Shown piece by piece: positions 483 to 5,628 of a stretch of 5,748 nucleotides of DNA (its first letter is position 1; the number at the start of each line of letters is the position of its first letter). The stretch spans positions 1-5,748 of the forward strand of contig JAJOLG010000016.1 of NCBI GenBank assembly GCA_021129445.1, read 5' to 3'. This DNA is from Candidatus Altimarinota bacterium (GTDB lineage: Bacteria > Patescibacteriota > Gracilibacteria > GCA-2401425 > JAJOLG01). The position numbers and the translations under genes were made by a program. The notes beneath the pieces are model-generated. The model worked only from the letters and a program-made list of their open reading frames with translations. It was not told the DNA's origin and did no database searches.

Positions 483-1817
483 ATGTCAAAAAATACAGTT
501 CAAGCAAGAAAATTAAATGGTTTTCGTGATATTTTACCAAGTTTAGCAATTCAAAAAATTGAAATGCTAAAAAAAATTTCTGAAACATTTCAAAGTTTTT
601 GATTTGCTCCAATTGAAACTCCGCACCTTGAATATGCTGATGTTTTAGTGTGAAAATGAAGTGATGAGATTCAAAAAGAACTTTATCGTTTTGAGGATCA
701 TTGAAAGAGAGATGTTGCATTAAGATTTGACCAAACTGTGCCCTTAGCGAGGTTTACTGTGGAAAATTTGCGTTTGCAAAATATTTCCTTGCCTTTTAAA
801 AGGTATGCAATTTGAAATGTTTTTCGTTGAGAAAGGGCTCAAAAATGAAGATATCGTGAGTTTACTCAATGCGATTTTGATTTTATTTGAACAAAATCTC
901 TTGCCTCTGATGTTGAAATTATTCAAGTAATTTATTCGACTTTGAAAAATATTTGAATTGAAAAATTTACAATTTCCTTGAATAACAGGAAAATTATGAA
1001 TTGATTTTTTGAGTATTTGTGAGTTTTAGAAAAATCTGAGTGAATTTTGAGAATTGTTGATAAAATAGCGAAAATTTGAGAAGAAAAAGTTGAAAAAGAA
1101 TTGATTGAAACTGAAAAAATTTCTTTTGAAAATGTAAAAAAAATTTTAGAATTTGTGAATTTAAAAGAAGAAAATTTTTCCGATAAAAAAGAATTTTTTG
1201 AAAAAATTTCTGAATACAAAAATTTTTCTGAAAAAATAAAAAATTGAGTTGAAGAATTGGAAAAAATTTATGAAATTTTGTGAAAATTAGATATTCCAAA
1301 AAATTTTTACAAGGTAGATTTTTCAATTGCAAGAGGGCTTTGATACTACACTTGAATGGTTTACGAAACAACTTTGGACGATTTGCCGTGAATGTGATCG
1401 GTTTGTTCGGGTTGAAGGTATGATGATTTGACAAAATCCTTTTCAAACGATGATATTTCGTGAGTTTGAGCATCAATTTGACTCGATAGGCTTCTTGCAG
1501 CACTTGATGAACTCGGTTTAAGTGAAGAAAAAAAATCTCCTGCAAAAGTTTTGATTGCGAATATGGATGAAAAATTTTTGTGAGAAATTTTTAAAATTTG
1601 AGAAAAATTGCGCAAAAATTGAATTTTTACCGAAATTTATCCAGAGTCTGTAAAATTACAAAAACAATTTAAATTTGCTGATAAACAAAAATTTGAATTT
1701 ATTTTGATTTTGTGAGAAAATGAGATAAAGGATTGAAGTTTTACTTTGAAAAATTTAAAGAATGGGGAGCAGGAGGGTGTTTGAGATTTTGAGGAGTTGG
1801 TGAGAAAATTAAAATAA
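483..1817 (+). CDS. hisS: Histidine--tRNA ligase
   Basis: 444 aa, normal for bacterial HisRS; charges tRNA-His with histidine in the cytoplasm using ATP. The class II core is complete: [10 protein letters not shown] near the N-terminus (residues 10-19), TPHLEY of motif 1 (46-51), [12 protein letters not shown] (79-90), motif 2 FRGERAQKGRYREF (114-127) with QCDFD after it, the HisRS signature ARGLGYYTGMVYE (283-295), GGRYDDL (310-316) and motif 3 GASIGLDRL (329-337). The C-terminal anticodon-binding domain covers about 354-444 (AKVLIANMD, then FILILGENEI and [11 protein letters not shown]). The gene holds 29 TGA codons, many at invariant glycines, against 6 GGN, so it is intact only if UGA is Gly. 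ATG 483 is the first start after an in-frame TAA at 468-470. There is no Shine-Dalgarno; the leader is A/T only. The 3' end overlaps the opposing nucleotidyltransferase gene by 9 nt. Confidence 0.98.
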
Positions 1818-2753
1818 CTCATCCAAAATTTTTACCCTTAAATCCTCATTATGAAATTTCAAAAAATCATCAGAAATAATTATTCAAAAATTATTTTTGA
1901 TGTTTTTTTTCTTTTTTTCTGCTCTTTTTTTTCAAATTTTTCTCAGAAAATTTTCAATAAAATTGAAATTTAGAATTGTTTCAAAAATAATTTTTATTTT
2001 ATTTTGTCAATCCTGCGAAGGCGGGAATCCGGTATAAATATGTTTTATTCAAAAATCTTTAATCCACTTATTTTGTTCAAAAAAATCCTTAAAAAATTTT
2101 TTTTCTCAAAAAACTGGTATTAAAGTTGCAGTCCAGATTGCAAGGTAAATATCAAAATTTTTGTATTTTTTTACCTTTTCAAAAATTTTTTTTTCATTTT
2201 CTGAAAAATCTTTTTCAGAAATTTGAATTTTTTCAAGATTGAAAGATCCTTTTTCACTCGTAAAAAAACTTAAACAAAATCTTCAAGCGATTTTTTTTCA
2301 ATGTCTGCGAAGTCAAAAAATGTGTAATAAAATAGTCAAAAAAAATCTACCTGTCCAAATTTTTCAATTGTCAAAAACTATAAAAAGATCAATATCGCTT
2401 TTTTCGTTTGCACTTCAAAAAGCAATTGTATTTCAAATAAAAATTCATTTTACAAAAGGACAAAATGCGAAAATTTTTTGGTATTTAAAAAATTTTTTTA
2501 AAAATTTTTGTGAGTAAAAATTTTTTTGTAATCAGTTGGAAAAAAATTTTTTTACATCAAATTCTTCGAATTTTCAAGTGTTTTTTTGGTGAAAAAATTT
2601 ATTTTTTTCATTGAAAAAATTTTTATCAAAATAAGATTTTTTTTCTTCATTTTGAATTTTTTTTCACTCAAAAAATTTTTTTTCCTCATTTATTGAAATT
2701 TTTTTATCAAAAATCAAAAAAAATTTTTTCAAAATTTCAGGTGTAATTGTCAT
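1809..2753 (-). CDS. Nucleotidyltransferase-domain protein (CPR-type)
   Basis: 314 aa. A nucleotidyltransferase (Pol beta superfamily, MNT-like) core is clear: GNTIAFGSANEKSDIDLFIV at 107-126, with the GS pair (113-114) and the metal-binding Asp pair D120 and D122. The following WTGRFFLTILLHIFGLRR, then GKKIAGRFCLSFF (133-164), and the later DIYLAIWTATLIPVFG with NKWIKDF (201-234) fit a family that I recall as common in candidate-phyla genomes and whose substrate is unknown. Residues 1-95 are Lys/Phe-rich and unrecognised. Near the C-terminus FHNEDLRVKIL (300-310) also fits the family. Fifteen glycines are TGA and three GGN. Residues about 240-249 are encoded by a GC-rich palindromic repeat. 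The ATG overlaps the yjjX stop (TAATG), implying co-transcription and coupled translation. The gene ends head-on against hisS. A role in RNA or nucleotide modification is possible but not shown. Confidence 0.85.
2006..2035. repeat. GC-rich REP-like palindromic element inside a CDS
   Basis: Positions 2011-2032 are about 68% G+C, in strong contrast to the flanking poly-A/T. TCCTGC and GCGGGA (2011-2016, 2021-2026) pair around a GAAG loop with one G-T wobble, flanked by GTCAA and ATCCGG. From memory this closely resembles the dispersed hairpin repeats of the GTCATTCCTGCGAAGGC/GGGAATCC type found in many bacteria. It is read in frame as part of the nucleotidyltransferase (TGFPPSQDG, residues 241-249), between two family-conserved segments. 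Whether other copies exist in this genome cannot be seen here. Confidence 0.6.
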
Positions 2754-3292
2754 TATTTTAAATAAAATTTGTTAAAAAATGGGGGAATTGCAGATAAAAA
2801 TGCAAAAACAAATTGGTCTGTTCTTGTTAAATTTCAATCGGACCACGCTCAAAAAGCTCATCATTTTTTGCTTGCATTTTTGTCTTTTGTCTCTTTTCCG
2901 AGAATTATTCATAATTCTTCACCATCTTCATAAATTCATTTTTCAAATTTTTCCGGTACTTCCATAAAATTTGAAAGTCAAAAATGTCAGTTTCAGTTTT
3001 TATCCAAAATGTAAATTGCTCAAAATAAATATGCTTTTTCTCAAATTTTTGTTGTTCATCATTCCATTCAAACAAAAAAATTTCATTCGATTCACTTTTT
3101 TTTCAAATTTTCCGCACGATTTTTTGCTCATTGCATATTTTCTTCAAGTGAAATTGGCATATCCGAAACATTAGAATTCATTTTTTCTCAAATTATTTCG
3201 ACTTTTTCACCATCAAAATAATTGCATTTTGCAATTCATTCTTCAATTGCCTTCAATTTTGCCGGGTTTGTTGTTCAAATTATGAATTTCAT
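2753..3292 (-). CDS. yjjX: Inosine/xanthosine triphosphatase, YjjX/DUF84 family
   Basis: 179 aa, the usual length of the family. These enzymes hydrolyse ITP/XTP, keeping damaged purine nucleotides out of nucleic acids. Family motifs in order: N-terminal IIGTTNPAKLKAI (4-16), VSDMP (42-46), QGAKNRAENL (54-63), FVGMEGG (73-79), a segment GEELGIILGKET (124-135), and GGAFGAWSDGNLTRTDQF (144-161) followed by AFLSAIPPF. TGA encodes 20 of 23 glycines, including those in GTTNPAK and MEGG. The ATG at 3292 is the only start after an in-frame TAA (3319-3317). Its TAA stop shares one base with the ATG of the downstream nucleotidyltransferase, so the two form an operon with likely translational coupling. 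Family assignment is strong; the exact substrate preference is inferred from the family. Confidence 0.9.
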
Positions 3293-3308
3293 AAAAATTG
3301 TTTTTTTG

Positions 3309-3336
3309 ATTTTTAATTAAAAAATTTTTTTGTCAA
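3309..3336 (-). promoter_or_regulatory. Possible promoter for the yjjX-nucleotidyltransferase operon
   Basis: On the minus strand an exact TTGACA (3336-3331), 16-nt spacer and AAAAAT (3314-3309) lie just upstream of the yjjX start. The -35 is perfect, the -10 matches four of six positions. It overlaps the -35 of the divergent PRC-gene promoter candidate. Confidence 0.35.
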
Positions 3337-3358
3337 AAAGTTTTGTTGAATTTATGAA
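3330..3358 (+). promoter_or_regulatory. Possible promoter for the PRC-barrel gene
   Basis: TTGTCA (3330-3335), a 17-nt spacer and TATGAA (3353-3358) match the sigma-70 consensus at five and four of six positions, with a predicted leader of about 30 nt before the ATG at 3394. The rest of the 3293-3393 gap is A/T tract with nothing else recognisable. Confidence 0.4.
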
Positions 3359-3393
3359 AAATTTTTTTATTTTTTTAAAAATAATTTTTTTAA

Positions 3394-3909
3394 ATGTCAA
3401 AAATAAAAAATACAGATTCATTCAGAGAAACAATTTGATTAAAGGCATTTTTTGATGAAAATACAAGGCTTCCCTTGTGAGTTTTGTCAGATATTGTGAT
3501 TGATGCAAAAAATTTGAAAATTGAGTGATTTATTGTGCAAATGTCGCTTTTTTGAAATAATAGTAAAGTTGTAAAACCATCTGCGATTTCAAGATGGTCA
3601 GGGGATTTATTTGTTTCTGAAAGTGCGATAAAACCTTTAGATTACTACGATTCCGTGAAAAAAATTTTAATTGAGCAAAATTCAATTTTACGGAAAAAAG
3701 TTTTAAGTGAATCTGGTGAAAATATTTGAAAAGTTTATGATTTTATTTTTTCAACAGCATCATTTTCATGTTTGTCAATTGTTGTGAGAAAAAATTTTTT
3801 TGGTTTATTTTTTTACTGAAAGGAGAGAATAATTTCAAAAAAACATATTTTAGATATCAATAAAGATGCAATTATTGTTAAAGATAAAATTTTAGCAAAA
3901 GCTGTTTAA
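3394..3909 (+). CDS. Double PRC-barrel domain protein
   Basis: 171 aa, cytosolic by appearance: no signal peptide or membrane segment. Two PRC-barrel-like repeats are visible. The first spans about 14-85 (IGLKAFFDENTRLPLGVLSD, then VIDAKNLKIEGFIV, then SESAIKPLDYYD). The second spans about 97-165 (ILRKKVLSESGENIGKVYDF, then FSCLSIVV, then RIISKKHILDINKDAIIVKD). Each shows the typical order: glycine turn, IG/LG-V-D strand, later strand I-V-D/K. PRC barrels occur in RimM and in various small RNA- or membrane-associated proteins; tandem forms are frequent in candidate-phyla genomes, with no established role. Six of nine glycines are TGA. An in-frame TAA directly precedes the ATG, fixing the start. 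Residue 100 is the window's only CGG codon. The stop overlaps the opposing M23 gene stop. Confidence 0.8.
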
Positions 3910-5177
3910 TCCAAGAATTTTAAAGGATTGACAGGTTTTCAATTTTCGTGAAATTCGAGATGTAAATGCGGTCAGGTTGTCAAAGGTCAAGCTCATGGGG
4001 TTCACGGCATTCATCAAGTTAATGCAAAAATTTGTCATTTTAAAACAATATCTCATTCCTTTACAAGAGATTTTGAAATGTGTCAATAAACCGTTTGAAT
4101 ACTTCATTTGTGGGCTAAAATTATGTAGGCATATCACATTCAGTCTGATCATCATTTTTCAACTTTGTAAACAAAAGCGTTTGCTGGTGCATGGATTTTT
4201 GTTCATTGTTTAGCACGAATATCAATTGCATAGTGTTTTATTCAAAATCTTTTTTCATATTCTGGGTCCAGAAATTTTGCGGTGATTCAGCGATTTTTGT
4301 CAATCGGCCAAATAAATTTTTTGTCGTCCAAATCAGAAAATCAGATTACATCATATGGATCATCGCTATTTTTCTTGATTTCATTTTTTCAAATTTCAGA
4401 ATTTTGTTCAATTTTTTGTATTTTTTCGTATCAAATATTGATTTTTTTGTCAATTTCTTTTTGTTTCAAAAGTACTTTTTTTGTCTCCAAAAGAGATAAA
4501 AGCATTGCTTTTTTGTTTTCTTTGAGTTTTTCTTCAAAAAGATTTTTTTGTTGAGAATAATATTTTGCAAGTGTTTCTTTTGCATTTTTAATTTGCAATA
4601 ATTCTTGTGAGTTTTCCAAAATTTTCTGATCAAGTTTAGAAATTTCTTTTTTTAATCTTGCATTTTTTGCGATTTCATCGGATTTTTTTTCTCAAATTAA
4701 CTCATAACTTTGAAAAAATCTCTGGCTAATTTTTCAAATTATTTCAAAATAATTTAATTCTTTAAAATAATTTCAAATTCAATTTTTTGTAAAAAATAAT
4801 TTTACAAAATTTTCTTCTCAGTTTGTTTCAATTTTTTTTTCTTCTCTGTGTAATTTTAAAATAAAATTTAAAAATTCCTCTTTATTTACATCTTTTACAA
4901 AATCAATATTACTTTTTTCTCAAATATTTTTTTCCAAATTTTTTTGAAATTCTCTTCTTTTTTCCAAAAATATTTTTTTCTCCACTTCTAATTGTTCCAA
5001 TGTTTTTTCCAAAAGATTTAATTGAGTTTGCAAAGAAAATTGCTTATCCAAAATTTTTTCAATCTCATTTTGAATTTTTTTATTTTCATCATTTAACTTT
5101 TTCAAAGTCTCAGAACTCGCAAAAACTCCTGAAAAACAGGTTAAAAAAATTATTATTGATGTGAAAAATTTTTGCAT
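3906..5177 (-). CDS. Secreted coiled-coil M23 family metallopeptidase
   Basis: 423 aa. Residues 1-20 form a signal peptide (lysine, hydrophobic IIIFLTCFSGV, likely cleavage after VFA-20). Residues about 22-260 are mostly Lys/Glu/Leu/Gln-rich coiled coil, as in EnvC-like cell-wall hydrolases. The C-terminal LytM/M23 domain begins near FIWPIDKNRGITAKF (288-302). It carries the zinc ligands H315 and D319 (KHYAIDIRAKQGT), H366 in VYGHIS, and H404/H406 in TTGPHLHLEF, preceded by a glycine-rich loop (388-397). All key residues are present, so it should be an active Zn-dependent peptidoglycan endopeptidase acting outside the membrane. TGA supplies 27 of 28 glycines; without recoding only N-terminal and middle fragments remain. 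An in-frame TAA at 5183-5181 fixes the start. A weak promoter candidate is TTGCAC (5224-5219) with TATTTT (5202-5197). The 3' end is stop-to-stop with the PRC gene. Confidence 0.93.
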
Positions 5178-5243
5178 TTTTTAAAATTTTTTCAAAAAAA
5201 TAAAAATTTTTTCATCAAGTGCAAAAAAAATTTTTTTAAATAC

Positions 5244-5280
5244 AAAAAATCTCAGAAAAAATTTTTCTGAGATTTAAAAA
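5244..5280 (-). terminator. Rho-independent terminator of rpsJ
   Basis: Positions 5247-5275 form a near-perfect inverted repeat: AAATCTCAG then A/T, then CTGAGATTT, with the arms continuing through the A/T core to leave a short loop. On the minus strand it lies 24 nt after the rpsJ stop and runs into TTTTTTGTA, an intrinsic-terminator layout. The flanks of this 121-bp gap hold only A/T tracts and a second small palindrome at 5290-5305 overlapping the rpsJ stop. Confidence 0.75.
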
Positions 5281-5298
5281 TTTATTTTTCGAATAAAA

Positions 5299-5628
5299 TT
5301 ATTCGTTTAACATTTTAATTTCTGTATCAACTCATGACGGAAGAGCAAGAGTTTTTAAAGTTGAAATTGTTTCGTTTGTTGGATTTGAAATATCAATCAA
5401 TCTTTTGTGAGTTCTAATTTCAAATTGTTCTCTTGCATCTTTATTTACAAAAGTTGATTTATTTACAGTATATTTTCTAATTTTAGTTGGCATTGGAATT
5501 GGTCAAGCAATAATTGCTCATGATTTTTCAATTGCTTCGATTATCGAAGTTGTAGCTTGATTAATGATTGCTTGATCGAATGATCTTACAATAATTCTAA
5601 TTTTTCAAGTAGATTTTTTTGGTGCCAT
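5299..5628 (-). CDS. rpsJ: 30S ribosomal protein S10
   Basis: 109 aa, the normal S10 length. S10 sits in the 30S head and also pairs with NusB in antitermination complexes. Conserved blocks in order: [17 protein letters not shown] (9-25), the extended-loop segment [20 protein letters not shown] (36-55), [20 protein letters not shown] (61-80), and LALPSGVDTEIKM (94-106). All four glycines (8, 37, 42, 99) are TGA, including the invariant GPIP glycine. The ATG at 5628 is the only start after an in-frame TAA (5649-5647). No Shine-Dalgarno is seen. Unusually, rpsJ is followed by a terminator and a cell-wall peptidase rather than rplC; what lies upstream is outside the window. Confidence 0.98.

Follow-up and report, generated by a model that had tools for sequence, protein, structure and literature searches.

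Results

The window, the whole 5,748-nucleotide stretch that we analyzed, makes up one contig (G000:C49) of a 672,893-base genome assembled in 77 contigs. Its seven genes were fragmented under table 11, whereas re-calling them with table 25, as had been advised in a preliminary description of this DNA, returned whole open reading frames with strong family matches. A fragment of an HTH_17-like gene runs off the contig end (1 to 357, reverse strand; E 2.8e-5, under the curated cut-off; 4 TGA and 0 GGN codons). It is followed on the forward strand by hisS (483 to 1817; 29 TGA, 6 GGN), encoding a Campylobacterota-like and probably laterally acquired histidine--tRNA ligase whose table-25 translation matched its family at 428.6 bits against a cut-off of 286.75. 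On the reverse strand lie genes for a weakly nucleotidyltransferase-like protein (1809 to 2753; NTP_transf_2, E 0.013; 15 TGA, 3 GGN, 3 TGG) and a YjjX/DUF84 inosine/xanthosine triphosphatase-like protein (2753 to 3292; DUF84/YjjX, E 1.3e-35; 20 TGA, 3 GGN). A PRC-barrel protein is encoded on the forward strand (3394 to 3909; PRC, E 9.9e-13; 6 TGA, 3 GGN), and an M23 peptidase with a coiled coil (3906 to 5177; Peptidase_M23, E 2.2e-21; 27 TGA, 1 GGN) and the ribosomal protein uS10 gene rpsJ (5299 to 5628; 133 bits, cut-off 85; 4 TGA, 0 GGN) on the reverse.

Consistent with the preliminary description, which had estimated by hand about 105 TGA against about 16 GGN codons and had seen tryptophan as TGG in six places, the exact totals for the seven table-25 genes were 105 TGA, 16 GGN (GGA 4, GGC 0, GGG 3, GGT 9), and 6 TGG. 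All glycines of rpsJ and the HTH fragment, and 27 of the 28 in the M23 gene, are indeed TGA codons. The stops comprise six TAA and no TAG. TGA codons fall on conserved glycines, as had also been described: those of the T-G-PHLH and K-G-Q motifs of the M23 peptidase, those in the GPIP motif and the C-terminal GV(D/E) of uS10, and 23 of the 29 TGA sites in hisS, at which glycine is the commonest residue among Campylobacterota HisRS proteins.

UGA across the genome

Open reading frames of at least 100 amino acids covered 84% of the genome when called with table 25 and 11% when called with table 11, in keeping with the expectation that standard gene calling would fail on this DNA, and the UGA coding signal is far beyond chance. 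We counted codons genome-wide from non-overlapping open reading frames (504 genes), the set of all six-frame open reading frames being spoiled by antisense shadows. TGA accounted for 10,764 glycine codons and GGN for 2,084, so that UGA makes up 83.8% of the total and has largely replaced GGN, as proposed. Its share reached 91% in the contigs carrying the ribosomal and polymerase genes. In 16 sampled genomes of the known recoded families, UGA made up 9 to 73% of glycines on comparable genes, all below this genome. Stops of the table-25 open reading frames were 441 TAA and 63 TAG, a count in which TGA cannot figure by construction; that only UAA and UAG end genes is argued by the full-length family matches, which pass through TGA to TAA or TAG, and by the coding density of 84% versus 11%.

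Five contigs (C21, C60, C62, C64, and C66) stood out by a higher GC content and by in-frame TGA that was sparse or absent (0 to 0.22 of glycine codons). They are probably foreign to the bin; C60 carries an HtpG-like gene. The contigs that supplied the phylogenetic markers, C4 and C27, are themselves TGA-rich.

The preliminary description had suggested tabulating TGA columns against homologues, and we aligned TGA as X in all such comparisons to prevent bias. Across 77 genes genome-wide, TGA sites corresponded to glycine in standard-code relatives at 417 of 538 positions, while TGG matched tryptophan at 23 of 32 and AGG matched arginine at 22 of 28. Twenty genes of the S10-spc region, among them the rpsJ of the window, contained 274 TGA codons; glycine accounted for 2,665 of 3,741 aligned standard-code residues and formed the majority in 204 of 269 TGA columns. 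The same was true of 134 of 177 TGA columns in rpoBC. Judged from these alignments, the genome uses NCBI table 25, with UGA as glycine, UGG as tryptophan, and UAA and UAG as stops. The table 4 code of Mycoplasmatales and insect endosymbionts, in which UGA is tryptophan, is similar in that reduced, AT-rich genomes likewise took UGA into use as a sense codon; it is ruled out here, as the preliminary description had it, because the UGA columns are glycine and the UGG columns tryptophan.

Release factors and tRNAs

The preliminary description had proposed a search for a tRNA-Gly with a UCA anticodon and for the absence of prfB. Neither prfB (RF2) nor prfA (RF1) was found in the 648 kb of the genome searched. 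We looked for a UCA tRNA with ARAGORN, an anticodon-loop regular expression, and a tRNA-Gly(UCA) pattern, and found no tRNA-Gly(UCA) in the same 648 kb, where the tRNA set is visibly incomplete and the tRNAs for Met, Glu, Leu-UAA, Arg-UCU, Ser-GCU, and Thr-UGU are also missing. With introns allowed and the threshold set low, ARAGORN returned more than 1,000 spurious hits in the AT-rich sequence, and the regular expression for UCA anticodon loops returned low-complexity junk only. As the assembly also lacks prfA and a number of essential tRNAs, not finding RF2 or the UCA tRNA says little by itself. With RF1 missing as well, the absence of RF2 is unprovable in this assembly, which leaves some room for an ambiguous or context-dependent decoding in which UGA is read as glycine by suppression while RF2 persists. 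We nevertheless consider such decoding extremely improbable, as UGA supplies about 84% of glycines, including those of ribosomal proteins and RNA polymerase, where competition from RF2 would be ruinous.

Besides these, we observed two tRNAs with a CCA anticodon, one of which has A73, C1:G72, and G37 and is odd for tryptophan, and a CCG tRNA with A1:U72 and G73 (all among C8:1944-2019, C4:12830-12904, and C5:3026-3102). A1:U72 and G73 have been treated as features of Trp-type tRNAs (PMC8629427), and CGG may not encode arginine in this genome. The rarity of CGA and CGG (88 and 80 in the 504 genes) and the CCG tRNA with Trp-type features resemble the CGA/CGG-to-Trp code of Absconditabacteria (PMC8629427), although the conserved testable sites, 0 and 1, respectively, are too few to decide the matter here.

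Phylogenetic placement

UGA-to-Gly recoding is held to be confined to Gracilibacteria/JAEDAM01, with an origin in their last common ancestor (2026 review, PMC13293708), and a screen of more than 250,000 genomes listed it only for Gracilibacteria and Absconditabacteria (PMC8629427). The open-access literature that we searched mentions no separate origin, which is not proof that none exists. In our class-wide sample, families f12, f15, and f22 had in-frame TGA in prfA (up to 17, with one or none in a few members) and no prfB over the cut-off, whereas in the other families prfB was present in almost all genomes and in-frame TGA was practically absent. The tRNA-Gly(UCA) pattern matched 85 of 353 class genomes, all of them in f12, f15, f22, and f24 except G011 (family f13) and one false positive, G340, whose match is actually a tRNA-Glu(UUC). 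We infer that these four families are the published Gracilibacteria/Absconditabacteria lineage. The genome studied here belongs to none of them.

In the grouping that we used, the order of this genome holds just one other genome, G012. A concatenation of the S10-spc proteins, with TGA masked as X, placed the two as sisters inside the standard-code families with a support of 0.995, and of 0.997 when the coverage of G012 was raised to 82%. They were also sisters in the rpoBC tree (support 0.999), and they grouped together in a tree of a second, native-type hisS copy of this genome, at C10:11088-12491 (support 0.97). G012 encodes an intact RF2 with the GGQ and SPF motifs, ends some genes with TGA, and has no in-frame TGA in prfA, rplB, rpoB, or hisS. 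A single clade of all recoded genomes was rejected by the AU test (P = 0.0007), and again with rpoBC (P = 0.0047), with the combined set (P = 0.00015), and with the raised G012 coverage (P = 1e-5). Thus, of the preliminary assignment to table 25 as known from Gracilibacteria and Absconditabacteria, the code itself was supported; the lineage was not, because the genome groups with the standard-code, RF2-bearing G012 and the tests reject a clade that unites it with the recoded families.

This genome might still be an ordinary member of the Gracilibacteria/Absconditabacteria lineage that a long branch or skewed composition has drawn toward standard-code genomes, given that it shares their code and, like f15 and f12, has low GC and UGA-rich genes. 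As a check for composition effects, we repeated the test with Dayhoff-6 recoding. The ribosomal set alone then no longer rejected a single recoded clade (AU P = 0.165), a point in favor of such a membership, but the combined set rejected it (P = 1.75e-5). Furthermore, attraction due to low GC or fast rates should pull the genome toward the AT-rich recoded clades rather than toward G012, the rpoBC and native hisS trees give the same answer as the ribosomal set, and the order grouping contains G012 only. We therefore regard ordinary membership as unlikely. Because its sister G012 has the standard code and one recoded clade is rejected, UGA very probably became a glycine codon in the own lineage of this genome, separately from the Gracilibacteria/Absconditabacteria origin.

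A possible intermediate in G011

G011, a standard-code genome, branches near this genome and G012, with an exact position that was unstable across trees. It has an intact RF2 with the GGQ and SPF motifs, and its tRNA at L283:4485-4561 combines the anticodon UCA with G1:C72, C2:G71, G3:C70, and U73, which are the criteria of glycine identity (PMC8629427). Its pilB gene (L282:10877-12118), which shares a contig with prfB at a distance of 3 kb, contains five in-frame UGA codons, all at glycine positions of the PilB of this genome; no other in-frame UGA was found in about 9,400 aligned residues (about 58 kb read). The UGA codons in pilB could mean that reassignment is just beginning in G011, that the gene was transferred, or that it is decaying. 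In G012, a UCA tRNA was not found. It is conceivable, and we put it forward tentatively, that the reassignment has been caught at successive stages, with G012 before it, G011 midway, and this genome once it was complete and UGA had come to dominate among the glycine codons.

The tRNA-Gly(UCA) and the single UGA-bearing gene of G011 could alternatively be relics of one ancient origin of the glycine code at the base of the class, after which the standard-code families, including G012, went back to using UGA as a stop. That history would require that in-frame UGA was purged again and again, and RF2 regained or kept, in more than 12 families, of which only f13, through G011, has a pattern-matching UCA tRNA among the 353 genomes, and we consider it very unlikely compared with a separate origin in the lineage of this genome.

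Turnover in a probably acquired hisS

The hisS gene of the window was 53 to 56% identical to Campylobacterota HisRS and branched among them in our contig search and tree, suggesting it was probably acquired laterally from a Campylobacterota-like donor. Since a standard-code donor cannot carry in-frame UGA, its 29 UGA codons would have arisen after the transfer. Provided that its immediate donor was not itself recoded, the gene directly documents a strong turnover from GGN to UGA in this genome.

Discussion

In bacteria, the reassignment of UGA to glycine has so far counted as a one-time event of one lineage. An independent second origin would make it repeatable, and its preconditions, i.e., very low GC, a small genome, RF2 loss, and an available glycine tRNA, could then be compared. 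With its standard code, G012 forms a before-and-after pair with this genome, and G011 may show a step between them, while the acquired hisS displays the turning of GGN into UGA in force after the code had changed. There are practical consequences as well, as pipelines that use table 11 miss most genes of this genome, and trees can be misled by marker proteins translated under the wrong code.

This genome resembles the table-25 organisms of class JAEDAM01, the Absconditabacteria (SR1) and Gracilibacteria (BD1-5/GN02), in having UGA as glycine, UGG as tryptophan, and UAA and UAG as stops, as well as a low GC content and a small genome. However, it lies outside that lineage, its UGA share of 84% of glycines exceeds the 9 to 73% in the 16 sampled members, and the UCA tRNA was not seen in it. 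Because the known recoded lineage has lost RF2 and has tRNA-Gly(UCA), we infer that both apply to this genome too and propose the following order of events. In a genome very rich in AT, UGA would first have ceased to serve as a stop, after which RF2 would have been lost and a tRNA-Gly with the anticodon UCA would have captured UGA. AT-biased mutation would then have converted GGN codons to UGA, until UGA made up about 84% of glycines.

Within the known recoded families, we observed two very different tRNA-Gly(UCA) bodies (loci L124-L142), one in f12 and the other in f15, f22, and f24, which may point to repeated origin or replacement of the tRNA in these families.
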